A stretch of DNA of 64,000 nt from Cystobasidiopsis lactophilus. Lineage: Eukaryota > Basidiomycota > Agaricostilbomycetes > Agaricostilbales > Chionosphaeraceae. Of the stretch, positions 7,934 to 55,983 are shown piece by piece. How positions within the stretch are numbered: position 1 is the stretch's first letter; every line of letters starts with the position of its first letter. The stretch is taken from the NCBI GenBank assembly GCA_001599975.1, contig BCIO01000006.1:925587-989586 (forward strand), written 5' to 3'. The notes below the pieces were generated by a model. That model worked only from the letters and a program-made list of their open reading frames with translations. It was not told the DNA's origin and did no database searches. The position numbers and the translations under genes are program-made.

Positions 7934-9095
7934 ATGCTCAGGGTTAGTGACTGGACGGCAAAAAGGGCAATCAAACCCTCACAAAGCACCGAAACAGGCG
8001 CAAAAGGCCACTCTGCTGTCTCTCCCGCCCGAGGTGCTGTCGCTCGTTATTGGCTTCGTTCGCCCTTGGGACCCGACCCAAATCGGCCAATCTTATGTTG
8101 ACCAGCTCCTCGCCGTCCTGCTCATCTCCAGATGGATCAGCTCAGTGGCCGAGAAAGTGGTGTTTCATTCGATGGCGCTCAAAGTGCCCCTGCCATTCCA
8201 GTGGACGCCGCTGCACGCACGCCGAGCCTCGAAAGCCAGGCACCTGTCGCTCCAGGTGTATCAATATGCCGTTGAAAGCAAGGGATGGACTTGGAAGGCG
8301 TTGGGCTCCGTCAAGACCATTTTCCCAGCGCTGAAGACGGTCACGCTCGAAATCGCCATTTCGGTCTGCTTGCCCGGTCCACAAGTCAGCGCCATGGTGC
8401 ATCCCTACCTTGCCAAGCGAGTGCGTCGGATCACCTTGACGGGGCACGTTGCTTTCTTGAACGCCTCGACCGTGATGTGGTCTGGGGGCTGTCCGTTCAA
8501 CCTCGATGGGTGGTTCCGCCTCTTCCCCAAAGCGCCAAGATTGCTTCTCATTGCCAAGATCATGCAGCGCGTGACAGCGAGAGAACCGGTTTGGGAGACC
8601 AATGAGCTGGACATGGCGAAAGCAATTTTCGAATGGCAAGACCTCGTTGGCCTTTCCGGCAAGAACCAGTGGGGATCCGACACGCTCAGTTTCTTGCCAG
8701 CTTCAGCTCGCCAGCTCAGCCTCCGCTTGCGGCCTCAAGCCACTCAAGATGTCTCAAAGCTGGCGGCCCAGCTCGGCAAGTTCGAGCGCCTGCAGCGCTT
8801 GCGCCTCATCGACTTCGACTTCAACCGCGCCTTCGTCGAGAATGACCCCTCGGTGGTCGACCCTCCCTCGAACGACCAAGAGTTGGAGCGCTTGCAGAAG
8901 CTGAATCCCTACGAGATCCTCGCCGAGGTGCTGGCGAACCCGGCTTGCCTGCCGGCGCTGAAAGAGGTCCAGGTGGAGATTTCCCGCGACCGAGAGTACG
9001 CCTCGCGCAGGCCGCCCAGCGCCCTCCTCCAGATGTGCTCGGCCCGAGGCTTCAACCTGAAAAGGCGAATCTGCGGTTCCGAGTCCCGACGATGA
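7934..9095 (+). CDS. F-box-like protein, paralog 2
   Basis: About 369 residues. The proposed start is ATG at 7934, giving MLR. A 55-nt intron (7943-7997, GTTAGT...ACAG) then brings in AQKATLLSLPPEVLSLVIGF. Without the intron the long frame has no ATG. The F-box-like LP.EVL motif is followed by QLLAVLLISRWISSVAEKV and repeated hydrophobic blocks such as RLLLIAKIM and LQRLRLIDFDFN. Together with 4571-5854 it forms a pair split by the SMP-30 gene, so a local duplication is likely. Substrate and partners cannot be inferred. Confidence 0.72.
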
Positions 9096-9473
9096 CTTGT
9101 TTGGTTCTCTGGTGAAGCCTGTCCTGTTTTGCAGAGGATGGCCGAGCTAAAGAACGTCCCAATCTCAGGCTTCAAAGTGCCCGCTGCAGCGTTTGAAAGG
9201 GGGTGGCGGCATAGAGCATCTGTTTGTGGCGAAGCATCGCTGCCCCCTCCGTCGTTGTGGGCATCCGCGGCTTCTTATCGACACGAGTCAAGTGAAGGAT
9301 CGTGTTTACGGGAGCAATCGAAGGCCAGATTTGCAATTCACGCCACCCGCGCTTCGGCTCCATTATTTGCAGGTGACGCACATCCGCGCCAGGGCTTTCT
9401 TCGCGGCCACTCCCAAGGTTGGGATTCCTCGACCGACTTGCCTGCCTGCTTCTGCGGCATTTAGACGTTGGCG
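9096..9473. other. Intergenic, nothing recognised
   Basis: Between the F-box paralog and the glycosidase gene. No coding signal is supported; presumably promoter sequence for the downstream gene. Confidence 0.4.
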
Positions 9474-12400
9474 ATGGCTTCCTCCAAGCCCAACAACCGG
9501 CCCAGCCAGATCGACCTGAGCTCAGTAGGCACAGCGAGCGGCGAGGCTTCATCGACGCCCAAAGGTCAGCTTCCTGCCTTTGCCCTCACAATCTGCTCGC
9601 ACATCGTTGATTTGCTTGGTTCCACCACTGACAGCCGAGGAGAAGAGCTTCCTGTCGCCCAAAGTGCCGCTCGAAGTCGACGTGGACTCTGCGAATGCGG
9701 CGGGCACAACAAAGCGGCGGCCTTCGGTGCAGCGCAACAACGCTGGGCCCACGATTGGCTCCTTGGCCAGCGCCATCAACCGCGTCAAGAACAACCTCAC
9801 CTCGCAGCAACCGGCGCAGAGCTCAGACTCGGAGGAGGAGGCCGGCTACGACGCCGACGAGAGGGAGTCCGTCTACACTCAGGGCGACGACTCGGGCGAC
9901 GACCAGTTCCGCCAAGGCCCCAGGCGCGGCCTGTCCTCCATCTCCACGCTGTCAGGTTACGCACAGGGCAGCATCCCTAACCTGTCCCGCTACTCGTCCA
10001 TGGTGAGCACACTTCCGGTCCCAATCACAATACGTCAACAACTGTGCTGATTTTTATGGCGCAACAATGCGTCTCTTTTAGGAGAGCATCTTCCCGTCCA
10101 GAGGCTACCAGCGCTCCTTCTCAGCCGGCGGCCACCGATCCGACTTTGCCTCCACCAGGCCCTTCCCAACCCCGGGCCTCAAGGAGCCCCGACACCGCAC
10201 CCCGTCCGGCGCCGACAAGTCCGGCTTCGACTTCCAGTCCGTCGAGGAGAAGCGCCTCGTCGAGGACGGCGAGAAGAAGGTGCACTGGAAGCGCTGGGGG
10301 CCTTATGTGTCCGAGAGGCAATGGGTGCGTTGCGTCTTTTTGGGTTACTTGGCACAAAGGGGTGCACCGAAAGCTTAAATTTGACGTTTCGCCCGCTTGC
10401 ACAGGCTACTGTAGGTCGCTCTGGCTCCATTATTCCGTTGTGAATAATTCGTTAAAGTCGAGCTACAGGTCAGAGAGGACTACTCTGCGAACGGAGATCC
10501 CTGGACCCACTTCCCACACGAGCACGCCCGGTCCAGGGCCTACCGCTGGGGCGAGGACGGCTTGGCTGGCATGTGAGCTGGCCCTTCTACCTTAGCCCCT
10601 CGAAACGTGGCTTAGTTGTTCGCCGCTTTACAGCTCCGACAACCATCAAAGATTGTGCTTCTCGCTGGCGCTTTGGAACGAGAAGGACCCCATCCTCAAG
10701 GAGCGCATGTTCGGCACGACCAATGCTCAAGGTGCGTGCCGCCGCCCTCTTTAACACCGCGTGGAAGTGTTGTTTATGAGTGTACGCACAGGCAACCACG
10801 GAGAAGATGTCAAGGAGATGTACTACTACCTGGACAACACGCCGACGCACTCGTACATGAAGTTCCTCTACAAGTACCCGCAGCGCGAGTACCCTTACGA
10901 GCTGCTCGTCCGCGAGTCGGGCAACCGGAGCCGGGAGGCGACCGAGTTTGAGATCCTCGACACGGACGCCTTTGACGAGGACCGGTACTGGGACGTGTAC
11001 GTCGAGTACGCCAAAGACGAGGACGACGCCGACTCGACCTCGATCCGCATCACCGCCTACAACCGCGGGCCCGAGACCGCCACGCTGCACATCATCCCCC
11101 AAATCTTCTTCCGCAACACCTGGTCCTGGCCCAAAGAGCGCCCCACGGGCAGCGCCATGCCCTCGCTCACCGCCCTGAACGAGTCCCAGATCCAGATCGA
11201 CCACGAGACCTTGGGCCGCTACTACCTCCACATTGCGGACAGCCCGCTGCCCGTCGGCCCGAGAAAGGCCAGGCAGCCCATCCTCGAGACCGAAGGTTCT
11301 GTCAGCCCCGAGCTCTTGTTCACGGACAACGACACCAACTTTGAGCGCCTGTACGGCGGCGAGAACGTGGTGCCCTTCGTCAAGGACGCCTTCCACGACC
11401 ACATCATTCCCTCCCACCGCCCCGAGGTCAAGCCTGCCCACACCCCTTTGAATGTGGAGGAAGTGGATGCCTCCATTGCCAACGGCGTCAATGGCGCGCC
11501 CTCTGCAACAACCCCGAACGGCGATGGCAAATCCGAGAACGCCACCGCCGTGCCCTCCCCCGTCGCTGAAACCCCCTTGCCTCAACGCGTCTTCGTCAAC
11601 CCAGAGAAGAAGGGCACCAAGGCCGGCGCCCACTTCACCTTTGAGAACGTGCCGGCCAACGGCGGCTGCGCGGTCGTGCGCCTCCGATTGACGCCCAAGG
11701 CGATGGACGAGGCGAGCCAGGACGAGGAGCTGTTTGATCAGACCATCGAAGACCGTCGATTGGATGCCGACGAGTTCTACGCCCGGTTCAACTCGTACGC
11801 TTTGACCGACGATTTGCGCAACATCATGCGCCAAGCCCTCTCTGGCATGCTCTGGTGGGTTGCAGAGCTTCACTTCAACTCCTTTCAACGTTGATGTCTC
11901 TTTCTTTCCTTTCGGCCCGCAGGAACAAGCAGTTTTACTACTTTGTCCAAAAGGAGTGGCTCGAGGGCGACCCGGGTCAACCGCCACCGCCGCCCGGCCG
12001 CAAGTTCATCCGCAACATGGAGTGGAAGCACGTCTACATCGACAACATCCTTTCCATGCCCGACAAGTGGGAGTACCCCTTCTTCTGTGAGTGCTCTTGA
12101 CAACCAGACCGAGAAACTCTCTTGATTTTATTGTTGGGTCGCACAGGCATTTGGGATACAGCTTTCCACTGCATTCCGCTCGCCATGATCGATCCGGCCT
12201 TCGCTAAGAGCCAGCTCGACCTCATGACCCGCGAGTGGTATATGAAGCCTGACGGCGCTTTGCCCGCGTACGAATGGAACTTCGGAGGTGGGCAATCAGT
12301 TCTCCCCTATGCGTCATGAGCATTCCGTGATGATAGCGTGCCCACAGATGTCAACCCGCCAGTGCACGCCTGGGCCACTTTCCGCGTGTTCAAGATCGAG

Positions 12401-34241: not shown

Positions 34242-34526
34242 AGATGCACCTGTCGACCTTAGACCTTTGTACTTCATTTCTCAGCATTACTCCTTCGCAT
34301 ACACTATCTAGAACATCATTAAAGTACCTTAATCCATGAACTGAACGAACCAGTACTGTCAAAGTCAATTTTGTCCACGCCGCCACCCAAACTCGCACCC
34401 AAACTCGCAGGCTCAACTGCGTGCGGCCACTCGCTTTCTGCCATGTATCTGCTGCGGCCATGACCGCAATGACCTTCATACCCTGGATGGTCCTACTGTG
34501 ATGATGCTTGACTACCATGCACCGAG

Positions 34527-45486: not shown

Positions 45487-47101
45487 CTACGGTGCCAAAA
45501 CTGCGCAAGCCACAAAGCCCAAGAACATCCCGACCAGATTTTCTTCCAGCCTCCGTGCGGGGGACGATGACGAGGAAGTGGGTGCAGTGTTCACAGAAGA
45601 CGTCGATGAGAACCCGACCAGAGAGGGCGAGGTGATAGTCGTCAAGGCTGTCCAGAGCTTGATGATATGAACACTGGGAAGGGAGGGGCTGAACCTGAAC
45701 CTACCATTCGTGTTGAGCGACGCGCTAACAACAACTGCGCTCGTTACAACTCCGCCGTTAGCGTCAGTCGACATCACAAGGCTTTCCACGATAACATCGC
45801 CACCTGGCAGCGTCATCGTCTGAACAACAGGCTGGCCGGCAGTAGGCACAGGTATGGGCTGCTGGACAACAGTGGTTTGGCCGTCAGAGCCCATGACTGT
45901 GAATGATGAGAAATGAGTCGACATGTCCCCATCAGCTGGCGAAGGCCGCTCACTGGTGACGGCGACTTGAGTTGTTTGACCAGCTGCAGGCGCTGGTGTG
46001 TCAACGGACACACTGGTTTGAGTATTCGAAGGAGAAGAAGAGGTCGTACCAGCTGCAGTCGGACTGTTGCCGCCATTTGTTGGCTGGGCGCCGCCACCAG
46101 CCGTGGTTGTCGTGCCGCCACCAGCGGTAGTCGTCGTACCGCCACCACCTCCTCCACCGGCAGGCGCATCACCACACGTAGCTTGCGCCAACATGTAAGC
46201 ACCCATGTTGGCTTTCGATGAGCTCCAGACTCGACTCACCAACGGCCCAGTTGGCGGGGAATGAAGAGAAGTACTGACACTTCTGGGCGATGCATCTGCG
46301 CAGCCGCCTAAGCCAGGGTCATTGAGTGTAGCTTGACACTCACTGGTTCATATTGGCTTTGTTGGAGGGCTGACACAGCTGAGTATTGTCGAGAGTGAGC
46401 AATGCGTAACAGCCGGAGATGCAAGTGCTTTGATCGACCGAGATGGGCGCCGGCGGACCTAGATAATCAGCCGTCTGAGTCAGACCGATGTCGATGTATT
46501 AGAGTAATGCACTGACCGGCACAGTCTTGCCAGTTGACCTGATGGTTTCAAGGTGAGCTGACAGGTTTCCGACGAAAGACGTCCACTTACAAAGCAGGTC
46601 TGCGTCCCTTCGTCGCAGTTGCTTGTGGTGGGAGTAAAGCAAGTCGTAGAGCCACAATACTGGGAACAAAGGCTGTTGCTGCACGGCGTTGCGAAGTTGT
46701 TTCCGCCAGCTGCTCATGTGTCCCTTAGCGCCTTCTTTCACCAATGGACCGGACAACCTACGATTCGGCGTGATAGCTTGAGCACAAAAGCTTGCGTTGG
46801 GGTTGGGGGTTTCTTCGCTCGTCGTGGTGGGCTGGGTGCCTTCATCGCTCGAGGTGGATGTCGGCGCGGACGTCGTGCTCGGAGCTGCTGGAGCTGGGTT
46901 AGGTCGACTTGACGTTGTTGTCGTGGATGAGCTGGTCGTTGATGTCGTTGAAGAGGAAGGTGTTGCTGAGGAAGTTGTTGCAGAGGAAGAGTCGGAAGGA
47001 GCCCTCCGCTCCAAAGCGCCAGTAGGGCGAGCGGCGTTCACGGCAAGGGCATGGCTGAGCGACAAGCTGCAAAGCGACAGTAACAACACTATAGCCTTCA
47101 T
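45487..47101 (-). CDS. Secreted Cys-rich, Ser/Thr-rich GPI-type wall protein (member D)
   Basis: The signal peptide is MKAIVLLLSLCSLSLSHALA, followed by a dibasic LERR, a likely Kex2-type site. A long Ser/Thr tract (over 60 residues) precedes a Cys-rich region read through several small exons: ATPCSNSLCSQYCGSTTCF, NCDEGTQTCF, WQDCAG, CISGCYALLTLDNTQLC, CIAQKCQYF and AQATCGD. The C-terminal third is Gly/Thr/Pro repeats (GGGTTTTAGGG) ending with a hydrophobic tail, LVGMFLGFVACAVLAP, that looks like a GPI signal. The tail segment PSLVGFSSTSS resembles the same place in members A-C. Probably cell-wall anchored. The even spacing of cysteines suggests disulfides. The family is not recognised and is not a clean CFEM. 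Confidence 0.75.
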
Positions 47102-47427
47102 TTCTGACTTGATGGTCGCTCTCGCAGATCCAGAACTGCTCCAAAGTTAGCCACCCCTCTTTGGCTGGTGTGCGGGCGGTGCCTTGTCTCTGGCCCCACG
47201 GTGCGCACGAGCGACGCTTTGTCGTGACTCCCCTTCTGGAAACTGAAAGAAAAGGTCTGGACAAGGGCAGAAGTGGCGAGGAAAAACGGTGGCGAGGCGG
47301 CCGTTGCATCGCACGGTGAAAGGAGCGGCGCCTGTCGGTGGCGGAGAAATTTCAAAGCCCATCAGTTGTGGCATTGCAGTGGCGTTCTCCGGGTAGACTT
47401 ATCTACATCCAAGCTCACACTAAAGCT
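47102..47427. other. Intergenic between two GPI-type genes
   Basis: Upstream region of member D; no coding signal seen. Confidence 0.4.
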
Positions 47428-48260
47428 CAGAGGAGATACACCAACGGGATCAAGAGCGTCCCAGCGAGCCCTAATCGCAGGTTGTTTGCGGAGGATGACG
47501 ATGTCGAGGCGGGAACAGGGAGGCTGCTAGATGAGAACCCCACTATGACAGGCGCAGAAGGCGAAGATGCTAGGAAGCAACATCAGCAAAGCAGGTGGGA
47601 GTCCTGACTTGAGAGGCAGGCCTCACAGATGCAGCCAGCGGAATCTGACGACCCTCCGGCACACACTGACAGAGAACCGGTGCTTGTGACCGTTCCCAAC
47701 AAAGAAGACGGTGTCGAGGCTACTTTTCAATCAGCTCGATTGCCACAGAAGTGAGACAGCAAAGCCAAACTCACTGGGGGCGAAATTGCCAGTAGCCGTA
47801 GGATCTTGGTCTATGGCTCCAAGTGTGAGCACGATTCGTGTGGATCAATGATGTTCTTACACTGCGTTGTTGGCGGAGTGTAGGTGGCAGGAGGCGGAGG
47901 GGCTGCGTAAGGAGCTGGTATTCATGCACTTTTTGAGCACATCCATCCGACACATCAGAAGCAGAGAGCGAACGCACAAGTAATGTCTGCCGGAGGCGCA
48001 GGCACGGGATTGTAGACTGAGGTATCGACGGCACCTGGAGGCGGTGGCGGCGGAGTATAGGACCGAGTGTTGGGATCATTGTATGAGTCGGTCACGGAGT
48101 AGGTGCCAGGGTCGGCGGCCTGCAAGGTTGTCTCCTCCCCTACAATCTCGATGGTCTCTATCCCTTGCCGAGCAACGAGATGTACGGGCGCTGGTGTGGG
48201 ACGCAGAGCCAAGGCAAAGGGCACCAAGCCCAGGGCCAACGCGCAGGCCGGAATCTTCAT
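47428..48260 (-). CDS. Small secreted Pro/Ser-rich GPI-type protein (member A)
   Basis: About 200 residues. The signal peptide is MKIPACALALGLVPFALAL. It is followed by LVARQGIETIEIVGEETTL, a Pro-rich block with PPPPPPGAVDTSVYNPVP, a second exon PPPPATYTPPTTQ, then YQDPTATGNFAPI. A Ser-rich exon with two cysteines follows (SVCAGGSSDSAGC). The last exon is SPSAPVIVGFSSSSLP, then SSSSANNLRLGLAGTLLIPLVYLL, a classic GPI signal ending at a TGA at 47428-47430. Every splice was cross-checked against member B: the same exon order and the same phases. Intron donors are GTGCGT, GTAAGA, GTGAGT and GTGAGG. Function unknown; it should sit on the outer membrane face or wall. Confidence 0.8.
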
Positions 48261-48799: not shown

Positions 48800-49698
48800 C
48801 TAGTCCGCTCCCGACAGATCATGCCCAAGGCTAAAGCCACAAGAAGAAGACCAGCGGTAGCAGGAGCGGCCCAATGAAGCCCCACCAATGAAGCCCCACT
48901 GCAGCTTCCACGCTGACGAGGACAAGATGTCCGAAGGAGCTGGCGAAGGGGTGGCAGAGAACCCCAGAATGACGGGCGCGGATGGGGTTGAGGCTGGACC
49001 AAGCCGGACCTTCAGGCGATGCAAGAGAAAGAAACTGCAGCAGACCCACAGGTACATCCAATCGAGGAGCCATTGATGCACGCTGATACTGAGGCGCTGC
49101 TTGGATCTACTGAGGTTGAAGAGGCGAGTTCCGTGGGAGCTACGGTAGGACTTGCCATCAGACCCATGCCGACGGACGGCATCAATCAGACGAACTTACT
49201 TGGTGCCGTGCCAGCCACTGTCGTTGGATTTGGATCTGTTAGGGCAGAGCCCACTACGTCAGCTTGACTAACACACAGGTCCTTCAAAGCAACTGACACT
49301 GAGTGGCCTGTGGGCTCTGCGGGCCCTGTGGCGCGTAAACCGCTGTCGAAGGGATGTCATGCGCTTATCTTATAGTGTCAGATTCAAAACGCACTATTTG
49401 TAGGCGCGATTGGCTGATATATTTGCGTATCGATTGCGCCAGGCGGACCGGTGGGAGAAGGTGGCGGCGGGACTGGGTTGTAAATCACCGTGTCGATGGC
49501 CCCAGGCGGCGCTGAACTTTGAATTTGGGCAGGGCTGGTCGGGGTCCCGGGCGCAGCGGCTGGGAGAGTTGTCTCTTCGCCAACAATCTCGATGGTCTCC
49601 ACTTGGCGTGCAACCAGCCGCTTGTCGATCCTTTGCATGTACAGGGCATTGGCGATAGCAGGAGTTAGCAGTGCCAGAACCCAAGTAGTGCGTTTCAT
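48800..49698 (-). CDS. Small secreted Pro/Ser-rich protein with altered tail (member B)
   Basis: Paralog of member A. The signal peptide is MKRTTWVLALLTPAIANA, then VARQVETIEIVGEETTLP and a doubled PPGAIDT(V/Q)IY(N/Q)P block. Later exons give TVYAPQGPQSPQATQ, YPNPTTVAGTAPT, SSASVSACINGSSIGCT and STPSAPVILGFSATPSP. Exon order and phases match member A. The tail differs: after SSSAWKLQWGFIG the frame runs into hydrophilic residues and stops at 48800. A perfect 14-bp tandem duplication at 48871-48898 causes this. Without one copy the same region would read a hydrophobic GPI-like end stopping at 48831. So B may be secreted rather than anchored, or be losing function. Confidence 0.75.
48871..48898. 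repeat. Perfect 14-bp tandem duplication
   Basis: CCAATGAAGCCCCA occurs twice, head to tail, at 48871-48884 and 48885-48898. It lies in the last exon of member B. Because 14 is not a multiple of three, it shifts the reading frame of the C-terminus. The absence of any difference between copies suggests it is recent. Confidence 0.95.
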
Positions 49699-50584
49699 GG
49701 TGTGCTGCTGGCTATATGGAGGCAAGGGCAGAGCAGTGGCAGTTCAGGGCAAAAGCCCAACGCGACACCAGCAGGCAACATTTCTCTTGGCAGGCGATCT
49801 TTTTGATCGGTGAGACCAGAATTCGGAACCTTTCCGCTCCGCCATTGTCGCGACGGACCTTGGTCCAATACTGGAGGGCGCGAGGCGGTGGCAGCGCAAG
49901 CCAAAGTTGGCCGGTGGCGCCGCCTCCTCGTGTTCTAATCCTATCTAAACCATGCAACGCACGCATTGAGGGCACAAGAAACACTCCAGGTGCAGGTAAA
50001 GGCGCCAGAAGGGCTCGATCAAAACGAAGCTCTCCGAGTCGAGGAGACCACCAGCAACCCAAGGGCAAATCAGACTCATTTTCTCTCATTGGACGAGATG
50101 TGAGAGCAATATATGGCAATGGGAAGGGCTAATGCGCCACAAGTCGTCGTTGCCCTCCAACCCGACTACTTCTGCTGCTGAACGCGGCTTTTCACCGATC
50201 CCTCAAAGAGTGCCATTGCCAGCTGCTGATATATGGACTTGATGCTTTCTGAACGCGCGAACGCGAACCTGCTTGAGCGATCCCTGGCGGGCGAGACATG
50301 CTCTTGGCACTGGAAAGGCTGGACTGCCCCTTTTCTTTGCCTCTTCTCCTCTCAGTTACTGAGACGCCCACCAAGTCCAGCTCAGGATTCTCCAGTGACC
50401 TACCAAAGGCTTGCAAAGGGAAATAAGCTCGTCCGACGATCGCCTGGCTTCAGAAGGCCGGTTGGAGTTGGCCCTGATCCACATTGGCCCCCAGCTTTGG
50501 CTTCTTCTACTCGACATCGACATTTATTGATACATTGACGTCGCGACATACCAAGAATCAATTCCTTGAACGCCATCTGCCAAG
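49699..50584. promoter_or_regulatory. Shared divergent upstream region of B and P1
   Basis: About 890 bp between the start codons of the minus-strand secreted gene B and the plus-strand membrane gene P1. No coding signal. Its counterpart between C and P2 lies at 53036-54213. Shared elements between the two would test co-regulation. Confidence 0.45.
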
Positions 50585-52189
50585 ATGCCCGCCCCGACTC
50601 TCGTCCGCTTTCAGCTTCCCAGGACCGACCCGTTCTCACGCAGGATCACTCTGCTGATGGCGGTCATGACCCTGGTTGCGACTGGCGCTATCGTCATCTT
50701 CTATTGGTTCACGCAAATCCACAACAAAGTCTGCATCTCGCCTCCCGTTGCCACTTGGCACAAGTCTTGCGCCCCAGCCACGCTACTCTTCGGTTCATCG
50801 TATTTCACAACCAGCAACAACAATCAGAACGCCAGTGCCCCAGTTCAAATTGGGACTTACCCTTGGGTTCGGGCTTTCCTATTCTTTTTAGCGTAGAAAG
50901 CGGCTGACCGCTTGCCCAGATTATGAGCGGCTTCGGCACTGGAGACCAAGACTCAGACGCTCCTGCAGAACCGATCAACTGTAAGGCCCACCAATTCTGC
51001 TGTTTGATGGATCTGGCTAAGCAAGAGCCACAGATGGCCTGCAAGCTTTCAGCTACAAGGCGCAGCGGATGAACTGCCAAGTGTTCTATACGCAATACAC
51101 GCTGCACTTTGATGCGACATCAAGCACCCTGTCTGCGTGCTACTATTGTGGCGCAGATGGAGTGCGCATGGTGTGCGCTTCGGTCGATTCCGAGCGGTCA
51201 TCGGTTTCAAGCCTGAGCGGCTACGTCGACCTCCTCCACAACTTCGGCATGGTTTTCAGTTACGTCAATACCAACCAAGCAGTTTTACTAGCTGGTATTA
51301 CGGGAGCCGCTCCGCTTTCGATTCAAGTGAAGAATTACACCGCCATCCCCGGCGTAAGCTCGGATATTATTGGAGCCCCCTTCAATGTGTCGGCTGTGAG
51401 AGCAACCATGGGCACTACCGCGTTAGTCGTTTCTTGCTGTCTAGTGTACCTTCTCAGGCTGACGATAAGGCACTCGTAGAGGGACGCTCAGCATCGAGCC
51501 TAACAGCGGGAATGCGGCCATGGACACTCTATATAACTCCTTGGGGGAGCTAGGTTCGTTGAGTTCAGAGCGCTTGCCTTCGATGTCCTTCAACTGATAG
51601 GTGGTCGATTCTTAGGCACATTTGTGCAGCAATCGACGGCAGCGGATATCAACAACCGTGTCTTCCTAGTTCCCTACACCTGTCCAGTATGTCGAGACCC
51701 CAAACCATGGACATCGATATCTATCATCGTCGGAGGCCTGTAAGTCCCAAGTCACAGCTAGTGCATTGTTCGAGACAGTGACTGACCCAATGTCGGACAG
51801 AGGCGCCACTCTATTCCCCTTTATTACCATTATGACCATTCTGTATTTCTTTTCTCTGAACTTTGCGTATCGTCTAGCTAATGCTTCGTACGAATTACAG
51901 ATTTGGAGTCTTCTTTGGTCCGGACTCCAAAGCCGTGCCACCGCCTGACGCCTCCGGGGCTACCTCCCAACCATTCAATATCAACCGAGACGACCCAATT
52001 CTACAGTCGCCTGTCCGAGACGGTAAATACGACGACGAAGAGGCGATCTCGCCTTATGGCCGCAGCTACACTCCCGTGCACTTCTCGGACCGCCATCAAA
52101 ATCTGGGAGGCCCAGGTCCGACACCAGGTTACGAAATGCAGCACACGCTGCCTTACAATGCACCGCGACGGTCGGTTTACGATCAGTGA
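50585..52189 (+). CDS. Cys-rich membrane protein, copy P1
   Basis: About 390 residues; ATG at 50585 gives MPAPTLVRFQLPRTDPFSRR. One helix (LLMAVMTLVATGAIVIFYWF) leads to a probable extracellular region with TQIHNKVC, ACYYCGADGVRMVC, VDSERSSVSSLSGY, IQVKNYTAIPGVSSDI, TLYNSLGELGTFVQQST and YTCPVCRDPKPW. It then has hydrophobic segments SISIIVGGL and ATLFPFITIMTILFGVFF. The hydrophilic C-tail holds PYGRSYTPV and ends SVYDQ. Introns at 50877-50919 and later keep frame and match P2. The CYYC and CPVC pairs suggest disulfides or a metal site. Family not recognised. It is divergent from member B. Confidence 0.8.
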
Positions 52190-52335
52190 TGGCTTTGGCC
52201 GCTTTGTAAGATGAGCTGGGTTTGCGGGTGTTGCGAGGGTGCTATTTGCATAGTTGGCATAGGCAGGCAGTTGTTCAATTCATATGGCAGTTCATTTGTT
52301 TTGCATCCTTGACTTGCAATTTTGAGTGATTGGAA

Positions 52336-53035
52336 TTACGAATGTATGCAGACGAGGTATACAAGCGGCGCGAAAAGCAAGCTTCCTGCGAGACTCCATT
52401 CAAGTCGAGTGGCGGAGGAGGAAACGGACGAAGAAGGGGCCAGGGAAGAACTGGAAGAAGAGAAAGCGATAATTGAGGGCGCAGAGACAGCTGTGGTGGT
52501 GTCCACAATCTCAGTCTTTTCGAGGGCAGAAGAGAGCATTCAGACTCACAACATCCGGCACTTGACGAAGAAGCGCCACACAAGGACACGGAAGAGCTGA
52601 TGGAAGATGATACTGGAGCACTAGTTTGTCCAGGGACAGCTAGAGGCAGCGTCTTGATAAGCGCACTTTTCTCCTCGGCCGCAAGGCGAACGGCTCACTT
52701 GGCAGTGGACTTTCAACGGGTCCTCCTCCTGGGCTGCTGAATGTAGCAGGCGCTGGTGGAGGGTTATAGACTGTTGTAACCCCAGCATCAGGCGGAACTG
52801 TCCCCGCGCAGGTTTAGACTAGTCGCCGACTTTGAACTCGCTAAGGCCTGAGCTCACCGCTTGTAGTGACCACAGGATTCACAACGGTAGTAACTCCCGA
52901 ATCAGGCGGAGGAGGTCGGGTATTGGGGTCATCAGATGAGGAAGAGGTGTCTGATACATCTTGGCGTGGATGGATGGCCAGAGCGTTGACTTGAAGGAGT
53001 AGGCAGAGTGGCACCAATAGATAAGCAGTCTTCAT
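52336..53035 (-). CDS. Small secreted Pro/Ser-rich GPI-type protein (member C)
   Basis: Third member of the A/B family, about 165 residues. The signal peptide is MKTAYLLVPLCLLLQVNALA. Then HPRQDVSD and DDPNTRPPPPDSGVTTVVNP resemble member A's DPNTR...PPP block. The second exon repeats the theme (PPDAGVTTVYNPPPAPATFS). The two-cysteine exon reads VSLCGASSSSAGC, close to member A. The last exon is SVSAPSIIAFSSSSSSLAPS, then RLEWSLAGSLLFAPLVYLV, a GPI-type tail, ending at a TAA at 52336. It lacks the VETIEIVGEETTL element of A and B. The tail is intact, unlike B. It lies between P1 and P2. Confidence 0.78.
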
Positions 53036-54213
53036 TTTGTCTTGAAAATGGTTTGCTGGTGGTTGAAGATGTCCAAGAGTGAGAGCACGAGACTATGGGT
53101 GGCGAGGATGGGGATGAGCTCGCACGCAAAGTGCACGGACCGACGTGGAAAGAAGCCAGAGAAGACTTTCTTGGCTGATGAGGAATGGACCTTGAAAGCT
53201 CTCACGCCAGAAGAATGGGGACCCAGACAGGAGAGGTAAAGATGGGCAGTGGGCTGACACTCCTGAATGAACGGCCGCCTGAGCCGCGCCACCGTTGGGC
53301 GACGTTGATCTCCTCTGTAAGGAACATCTACGCGTTTGAACGCCGTATCATAGATTAGCAACCGCCCTCTGTACTGAAAAGCGTTGTTGGCTTGAGGTTC
53401 AGACGGCACCGTGGGTGGCAAAAGTTGATGTGCCCGCCAACTCGACCCTTCTTGGCCTCGCTCGTTGGCCTGCCAGTAAAGTAGTCATTCGGGATCGCAG
53501 CAAAGGCATCATAGAGAGCAAATCAAGGTGGCAATCTATTCTTGGATTTTAAGCCACAGAGCGCTCCGAAAGCTCTTCAGAAGCCAGCCATCATTCTCGC
53601 CCTTCTAGAGCCGCTTGGGGATCATCCGAGACCAGCAACAAGCAAGCCAGACACGCGACGACGTGCAGTCCTTCGTCGACTTCGTACATGCCCGGAGTGG
53701 CCGGCGTCTCTCGCTCGCGCCGTTCAATGGAGCCAATTCTCGCCTCTCTGTCTCTCGGTCACAGACTTCCGGATGTGCGGGCGGTGGAGGGCCAGGAGTG
53801 TGGCGTGAGCTCGATCAGTGATTGCGTGCTCGAGGCTGGGGAAATGCGAGATCTTATCGAGCGTGGATCCTCGTCCCTTGAAAAAGAGGAGACGAGCGAG
53901 GCCGTGTCTCTCTTGGCGCGCTGGCACCAACAAATTTTGTGGGACGGGCTACATTACTTGCTGCTGGTGCTTGCAGCGTAGACGGCAACGAGCAACCCCT
54001 AGCGACCCAAGGCCACCAGCGACTCCTGACCCTTCTTGACAAGTTTCGAATTTGACGCCCGACGTTGTCCTCGCTGCTCCCCCTTGCGCTTGCTTGCTTC
54101 TTGACCGCCAGCCTCTCCCAAACATCTGGCAGCCTGGGTCTGGCCAGCGCCATCCCAAGCAGCCTTGCCTCAATAGCGCCCTCAGAAGCCGCGCTCACCA
54201 CCGACTGCCCAAG
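53036..54213. promoter_or_regulatory. Shared divergent upstream region of C and P2
   Basis: About 1.18 kb between divergent start codons, the counterpart of the B-P1 interval. Open frames on both strands look like chance: mixed composition, no splice support. Confidence 0.45.
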
Positions 54214-55983
54214 ATGCCGGCTCCAGTCCTAGTCCGCTTTCAGCTTCCCAGTGCGTTCATGTCGCTCACTCTAGCATGCTTGTACCTGCTCAACCGTTTC
54301 GCTATGAACGCACAGGAAGCGACCCGTTCACCCGCAAGGTCACCCTGCTCATGGCCACCTTGTCGCTGGTGGCGGCCGGAGCTATTGTCATCTTCTACTG
54401 GTTCACCCAGATCCACAATAAAGTGTGCACCTCGCCGCCGACGGCCATTTGGAACAAGAAGTGCGCGCCGGCCACCTTGCTCTTCGGCTCGTCCTACTAC
54501 ACCTCGAGCAACGACCAAAATTCGAGCGACGAGGTCACCATTGGCACTTACCCTTGGCAGATGGGTGGCTTTGGGACAGGCCAAAGCGGCCAGCCCGCGG
54601 GTCCGATCAACTATGGTTTGCAGGCGCTGGACTACCGGGCGCAGAGGATGCAGTGCCAGGTGTTCTACACCCAGTACACCTTGCACTTGTGAGCCTGCTT
54701 GTTTCCTGCTCAGGACACCCTTGCTCACCCCGCGACAGTGACGCCACTAGCTCGACTCTCCAAGGTGCGTTTTGCTCTCTCCCATTATTCCATTGGAATA
54801 GGGGTTTTGAATAGTGCTGCACAGCCTGCTATTACTGCGGCGACGACCTCGTCCGCATCACTTGCGCGGTGGTCGACTCCGAGCGGTCCAGCGTGGCGGT
54901 GGCCAGCGTGTCCGGCTACTCTGACCTGCTCAGCAACTTTGGCTCGATCTTTGGCTATGTGTTCGTCTCCCTTTATACCTTAGTGATGCATTGAAAGGCA
55001 CTGACAATGAATGGACGAGCAGGACCACCAACCAAGCCGCCTTGCTCTCTGGCGTCGCTGGCCCCATCTTGTCGGTCCAAGTGAAGAACTGGACCGCCAT
55101 CCCCGGCTTGAGCTCGGACATCCTCGGCGCGCCTTTCAACACTTCCTTGGTCATCGCCACTTTGGGAACTCCAGCGTTCGTCTTTGCCTTCCCTTTGATC
55201 CATTTGTGATCTTTGCTGAGATAAAGGAACAGGGGTGGATTGACCATTCTGCCCAACACCGGCAATGCGCAAATGGACACTCTGTACACATCTTTGAACA
55301 CCTTAGGTTCGTCGTGGGACCCTACATTAGCTACTCTTCACAATTAGCTAAGGATTTCTGCTGTTTGGCGAACAGGCGTGTTTGTGCAAGAGTCCACTGC
55401 GGCGGACATCAACGACCGCGTGTTCTTGGTCGACTACACCTGCCCGATTTGCCACAACCCGAAAGCTTGGACTGCGATTTCCATTATCGTTGGAGGCTTG
55501 TCCGTGGCCTTTCCCTCTCAAGCCATTGCCTTCGCTTCTGACTTTCGAATGTATCGCCGTCGACAGAGGAGCGACGCTGTTCCCTTTCATTACGATCATG
55601 ACCATCTTGTCCGTTCCTCCTCCTACTGCTAGTCACGCAATCTTTTGGCTGACTAGACTTGGTCGGTGTCGTTCAGGTTTGGCATGTTCTTCGGCCCCGA
55701 CCAAGCCCTGATCCGCTCCACACCTCCTGCCGCCCTCAACTCCTCCCAACCCTCCTCTGGCACTCTCAACAACCGGGACTCGGTGCTCAAGTCTCCCGGC
55801 ATCGAAAAGGACGAAGAGCCGACCACTTCCTATGGCCGCTCCTACACGCCCATCTACGGCGCGCCACCGGAGGGCCTGGGAAGCCCCATGGCCAGCCCGG
55901 CTTTTGAACCGGCCCAACAGACGCTGTCTTATAACGCCCCTCAGGCTGGAACGACTGCGCAACGGAGGACGTATGATGCTTGA
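54214..55983 (+). CDS. Cys-rich membrane protein, copy P2
   Basis: Close paralog of P1, about 400 residues, many blocks near identical: MPAPVLVRFQLP, TRKVTLLMATLSLVAAGAIV, TQIHNKVC, CAPATLLFGSSYY, QVFYTQYTLH, CYYCGDD, DSERSSVAVASVSGY, VKNWTAIPGLSSDILGAPFN, STAADINDRVFLV, YTCPICHNPKAW and the tail SYGRSYTPIYG. It has an intron at 54251-54315 (GTGCGT...CACAG) that P1 lacks, and lacks the P1 intron at 50877-50919. Ends RRTYDA at a TGA at 55981-55983. Topology as in P1: one N-terminal helix, a Cys-rich outer region, one or two helices and a cytosolic tail. Divergent from member C. Confidence 0.8.

Follow-up and report, generated by a model that had tools for sequence, protein, structure and literature searches.

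A two-pass membrane-protein family divergently paired with secreted, mostly glycosylphosphatidylinositol-type proteins in Cystobasidiopsis lactophilus: a possible old cell-surface gene module

The Gene Array

In a 64,000-nucleotide stretch of the genome of the basidiomycete Cystobasidiopsis lactophilus (GenBank contig BCIO01000006.1, positions 925,587 to 989,586; hereafter the window, which is part of contig C6 in a genome of 22.1 Mb and 8 contigs) two genes of a membrane-protein family, P1 and P2, are each transcribed divergently from a gene for a short secreted-type protein, B and C, respectively. A third member of the family, P3, lies on contig C2 with its own divergent neighbour, X3, and in total a divergent secreted-type neighbour is present for 3 of 3 P genes at two independent loci. 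The arrangement may be explained best as an old fungal cell-surface gene module, an explanation to which about even weight is given.

The order B(-), P1(+), C(-), P2(+), the paralogy within each pair, and shared upstream regions of about 0.9–1.2 kb were proposed in a preliminary description of this part of the window, and all were borne out: the four are multi-exon genes at the positions given there, the paired start codons lie 886 and 1178 bp apart, and the identity is 33% over 170 residues for B and C (local score z = 8.2; 0/500 shuffles) and 69% over 411 aligned residues for P1 and P2. All gene models were spliced by hand with paralogs as guides and without RNA support. The models of P1, P2, P3, A, B, and C were re-translated, each with a single terminal stop. 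The spliced models of B, P1, C, and P2 have open frames with GT..AG introns of 50–69 nt, and introns are short (48–69 nt) across all hand-spliced models, which, like the types of protein encoded, points to a fungus.

These genes form part of a longer array, D(-) A(-) B(-) P1(+) C(-) P2(+), which within 7.5 kb contains four genes of the secreted type; tails of the glycosylphosphatidylinositol (GPI) type occur in three of these (Table 1).

Table 1. Features of the array and of the third P locus (window positions unless a locus is named; aa, amino acids; Cys, cysteines)
Feature	Position	Strand	Description
D	45487..47101	-	429 aa, 7 exons; secreted-type, Ser/Thr-rich, Cys-rich, GPI-type tail
A	47427..48260	-	203 aa, 5 exons; short GPI-type, paralog of B and C
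B	48800..49698	-	222 aa in modelled frame, 5 exons; short secreted-type protein
Perfect 14-bp tandem repeat in last exon of B	48871..48899
Divergent upstream region B/P1	49699..50584		886 bp
P1	50585..52189	+	419 aa, 7 exons; two-pass membrane protein, 8 ectodomain Cys
C	52336..53035	-	171 aa, 4 exons; short GPI-type; second intron uncertain
Divergent upstream region C/P2	53036..54213		1178 bp
P2	54214..55983	+	423 aa, 9 exons; two-pass membrane protein, 8 ectodomain Cys
P3	L005:4928-6630 (contig C2 from 658,727)	+	400 aa
X3	L005:4272->2544	- (opposite P3)	540 aa, 3 exons

The P Family of Membrane Proteins

Only three P genes were found in the genome: a whole-genome search with P2 (E up to 10), using a tool that scores the best candidates only, gave 18 matches, every one within P1, P2, or P3. 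P3 is 47% identical to P1 and 53% to P2. By hydropathy the P proteins have two hydrophobic segments, near residues 18–45 and 297–334 (TM1 and TM2), and the stretch of about 250 residues between them carries 8 cysteines, all aligned in 3/3 proteins. Columns identical in all three proteins make up 13/18 of the N-terminal tail, 15/27 of TM1, 109/257 of the ectodomain, 22/33 of TM2, and 8/101 of the C-terminal tail; between P1 and P2 the TM2 segment is 91% identical and the tail 40%. Three to five [ST]P sites per protein are kept in the C-terminal tail.

The nonsynonymous divergence (dN) between P1 and P2 is 0.27 versus a synonymous divergence (dS) of about 2.1, with a proportion of synonymous differences (pS) of 0.70, that is, silent sites near or at saturation; over the first 46 codons dS falls to 0.87. 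Judged from these sequence comparisons, P1 and P2 are old copies that have been strongly constrained, and since their silent sites are nearly saturated, the pairing would be old as well. Intron turnover in the family is high: two introns, at P2 codons 146 and 191, are shared in place and phase by P2 and P3 and are missing from P1, and each of the three genes also carries introns of its own.

Neither family had been recognised in the preliminary description, and for P this stands: a Pfam scan of P1, P2, and P3 (up to E 10) listed no family above the cut-off, and a search of the PDB with P2 and with a P profile gave 0 matches. The Pfam near-matches to DACND (0.07, P2) and Ost5 (0.014, P3) were rejected as lying under the cut-off. 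In a non-fungal set, 13 pattern matches in viral contigs and 172 in bacterial and archaeal genomes yielded 0 confirmed relatives, scans which say nothing on fungi. AlphaFold modelling of a single 128-residue exon of P1 reached a predicted local distance difference test score of 42.4.

The Secreted-Type Proteins of the Array

Secretion of these proteins was judged by hydropathy only, and the GPI type was called by rules of hydropathy and composition (N-terminal signal peptide, Ser/Thr-rich body, and hydrophobic C-terminal tail after small residues) rather than by a dedicated predictor; such tails were found in A, C, D, and X3. A is nearer to B (47% identical) and to C (50%) than these are to each other, with BLAST values of 1.5e-39 and 3.8e-26, respectively (composition correction and filter off). 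The last 45 residues of A, searched against the whole genome, gave three matches up to E 10, namely, A itself, C (6.5e-5), and B (7.5e-4). Four phase-1 introns lie in similar places in A and B (codons 95/102, 113/117, 125/129, and 157/159), compared with three introns in C.

D is longer, opens with a Ser/Thr-rich part followed by a Cys-rich domain, and ends in a tail which, as a genome-wide query, matched C at E 9.1e-5; an earlier D model matched C over its whole length (0/500 shuffles). CFEM was not listed in a Pfam scan of D, X3, A, and C (up to E 10). Other Pfam near-matches in the analysis (zf-C2H2, Mucin, and others) were discarded as below the cut-off. Weak genomic matches of B at C6:1726275 (E 0.05) and C1:4061376 (E 0.2), where the three frames of the match strand were inspected by eye, and of D at C2:1669355 (E 0.005), where all six were, revealed no convincing GPI-type gene and were judged to be chance. 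Besides the tandem repeat of B, the window holds just one other perfect, non-simple tandem repeat with a unit of 12–20 bp, at 34384–34409 (12-bp unit).

The Third P Locus

The third locus serves as an independent test of the pairing. X3 sits upstream of P3 on the opposite strand, with 655 bp between the start codons, and consists of a hydrophobic start, a Ser/Thr-rich region, a Cys-rich domain, a linker, and a GPI-like tail. Among the P-gene neighbours this tail is present in C and X3 and lacking in B; the best 12-residue hydropathy of the hydrophobic start is 1.8, 2.31, and 2.69 in B, C, and X3, respectively, and Ser plus Thr account for 24–30% of their residues. A crude six-frame scan of 123.5 kb for GPI-like tails gave 5 matches: C, D, X3, L029:267, and L042:6103 (A was missed, its last open frame having 51 residues versus the minimum of 55). 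Two matches in about 109 kb elsewhere correspond, as a small-sample estimate, to about 0.02 expected on the strand of X3 in its 2.4 kb. These two, L029:267 and L042:6103, are ends of open reading frames (ORFs) which pass the crude rule away from any P gene; as a GPI-type gene L042:6103 (+), about 1 kb from the D match, was rejected, being, on inspection by eye, another gene read out of frame.

A BLASTP comparison (E 0.01) of the ORFs in the 29.6 kb around P3 with the window gave strong matches for P exons alone, and therefore no wider segmental copy is visible; four further pairs had E from 7e-4 to 8e-3. The region downstream of P3 (L005:7089-9634) is genic and includes a Pro/Gly/Ser-rich stretch; its ORF 9074-9634 has sub-threshold matches to IBR and B-box zinc fingers.

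Some comparisons connect X3 with the secreted proteins of the array. The Cys domains of X3 and D are paired by BLASTP at E 0.001 and by 10/5000 shuffles (reversed controls 402/2000 and 393/2000), and with the earlier D model by 1/2000 shuffles, or 2/2000 with the cysteines held in place. The tails of X3 and A gave 0/3000 shuffles, and with longer pieces 0/2000 for A and 1/2000 for B. According to these data a distant kinship of X3 with D is possible, and an old pair of a D-like protein and P, with the short A/B/C type joining later, would fit. The X3 Cys region had a single match in the PDB (E 0.94).

Proposed Mechanism

The arrangement suggests a fungal module of two back-to-back genes, one for a two-pass plasma-membrane protein, P, and the other for a secreted protein that is rich in Ser/Thr and mostly of the GPI type; this module would have outlasted at least two old duplications, the first separating P3/X3 and the later one giving P1 and P2 with A, B, C, and D. 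The divergent promoters would drive P and its neighbour together, and both products would reach one surface, where P is predicted to have intracellular N- and C-termini and its Cys-rich part outside, and where the GPI-type proteins would be anchored in the outer leaflet or the wall. There they may come into contact with the P ectodomain, serving as its ligand, co-receptor, or tether to the wall, and P may signal inward via its variable tail with the proline-directed [ST]P sites. That P and its neighbour form a paired, probably co-expressed surface module is a proposition on which the evidence is evenly balanced, and a direct physical complex of the two is considered unlikely.

Likeness to Known Systems

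The nearest known arrangement, likened by gene order and not by sequence, is pit1/pit2 of Ustilago maydis, where a transmembrane protein of unknown function is genetically linked to a secreted protein and the two genes are co-regulated; their promoter is putatively bidirectional, and one element in it is predicted to be shared (PMC4836707). As in pit1/pit2, the membrane and secreted genes diverge from one upstream region, in 3/3 P genes here. Pit2, however, is described as a secreted cysteine-protease inhibitor (PMC4836707), unlike the mostly GPI-type neighbours of P, and the core (TGCCACGT) of the Cib1/UPRE element reported for the pit1/pit2 promoter was found in 0/3 upstream regions (gaps of 886, 1178, and 655 bp).

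The Stp complex of U. maydis, in which secreted and membrane proteins are reported to form a stable surface complex (PMC8159752), shows that the proposed kind of partnership exists in a fungus; its member Stp6 has one predicted transmembrane domain (PMC8159752), in contrast to the two hydrophobic segments of P. Vmp1 and Vmp2 of U. maydis, described as having a signal peptide and one transmembrane helix in 142 and 335 aa (PMC8176221), resemble P as fungal membrane proteins of plain architecture but differ from its two hydrophobic segments and 400–423 aa. A literature search by title and opening of the abstract, with subscription journals mostly outside its scope, found no GPI/two-pass pair of this kind.

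DEG/ENaC and P2X channels are two-pass proteins with a Cys-rich ectodomain. The P proteins are similar in that two transmembrane segments flank a Cys-rich ectodomain (3/3), a topology which alone is weak evidence, and no DEG/ENaC or P2X model was listed in the Pfam scan of P1, P2, and P3 (up to E 10). A bolder proposal is that P constitutes a new family of two-pass, disulfide-rich receptors or channels with the strongly conserved TM2 as the working part and with the GPI-type neighbours as extracellular subunits of its own or as tethers to the wall. The two parts would make up a wall-to-membrane sensing unit that predates the split of P3 from P1 and P2; this is regarded as improbable.

Weighing the Pairing

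A number of results weigh against a cooperating module, and the first of them concern the unit itself. P1 and P2 form one local array, leaving only two independent loci, and the four secreted genes beside two P genes do not make a strict one-to-one unit. Of the preliminary proposal of a two-gene unit duplicated as a block, the divergent pairs stand, being part of a larger array with A and D, and the strict unit does not. Two divergent pairs in the same orientation would arise most simply from one duplication of a GPI-P unit; the identities cannot prove that B/C and P1/P2 were duplicated jointly, since among the three short proteins B and C have diverged most from each other and the silent sites are near or at saturation.

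Of the GPI type proposed for B and C, C has the expected tail, and the modelled frame of B fails the rule, having no hydrophobic C-terminus; past the B repeat a different frame (ORF 48831..49106, minus strand) encodes a hydrophobic run that resembles the A and C tails, and B may be altered, differently spliced, or misassembled. The earlier D model was not significantly similar over its whole length to A (50/500 shuffles) or B (85/500).

X3 is no clear homolog of B and C. Its tail scored 22/3000 shuffles with D and 202/3000 with C (longer pieces, 104/2000 and 267/2000), whole-length comparisons gave 7/500 with A and 15/500 with B, and the parts of D and X3 past the Cys domain gave 52/3000. Single-sequence HH-align of the two Cys domains returned a probability of 5.8 and E 0.0065, and exon-level BLASTP (E 0.01) gave no X3–D pair. 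Genome-wide queries with X3 listed X3 itself and one weak match on contig C5 (E 0.22) without D, A, B, or C; the X3 tail and X3 Cys region each listed X3 only, and X3 was not listed with the D Cys region. The linkage that the preliminary description expected of relatives recurs within this genome at P3 with its divergent GPI-type neighbour, at two loci only and with an X3 at best weakly related, and that description is overall partly supported.

The three upstream regions have 0 common 9-mers (control median also 0) and nothing better than E 0.07 by BLASTN; their common 8-mers number 6 versus a control median of 4. This lack of common sequence fits great age and gives a shared promoter element no support. 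Even co-expression would not by itself prove partnership, since in yeast the co-expression of adjacent genes showed no noticeable association with transcription factors in common (PMC2045684).

An alternative is that two unrelated surface genes became adjacent by chance and were then duplicated in tandem, with P3/X3 as neighbours by chance or as a leftover of an old segmental copy and with no joint action of the products. The limitation to two independent loci, the lack of clear homology between X3 and the secreted proteins of the array, the lack of conserved promoter sequence, and the extra unpaired genes A and D all agree with such a history. Against it, the P duplications are old, yet all three P genes retain a divergent secreted-type neighbour, and few other GPI-like tails occur in the 123.5 kb scanned. 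Chance adjacency is a serious possibility, held at somewhat below even.

A cluster of secreted genes such as those known in basidiomycetes, in which P is co-regulated but mechanically independent, perhaps acting in secretion or wall remodelling, would be in line with the co-regulation of pit1/pit2 and with the effector gene clusters described for U. maydis (PMC4836707). It also agrees with the presence within 7.5 kb of four genes of the secreted type, of which three encode GPI-like tails, and with their strong differences (A-B 47%, B-C 33%). It is quite unlikely: P is conserved in its ectodomain and TM2, in a manner in which many effectors are not, and nothing here points to infection-linked expression.

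Significance

Fungi rely on surface proteins to sense and build their wall, and the partners of these proteins have often not been identified. Should P and the GPI-type neighbours cooperate, gene order alone would lead to a testable receptor-partner assignment for two families without a Pfam name, and silent sites so close to saturation would mean that the link has long been kept. If they are not partners, the locus would be a clean example of local duplication imitating a functional pair.

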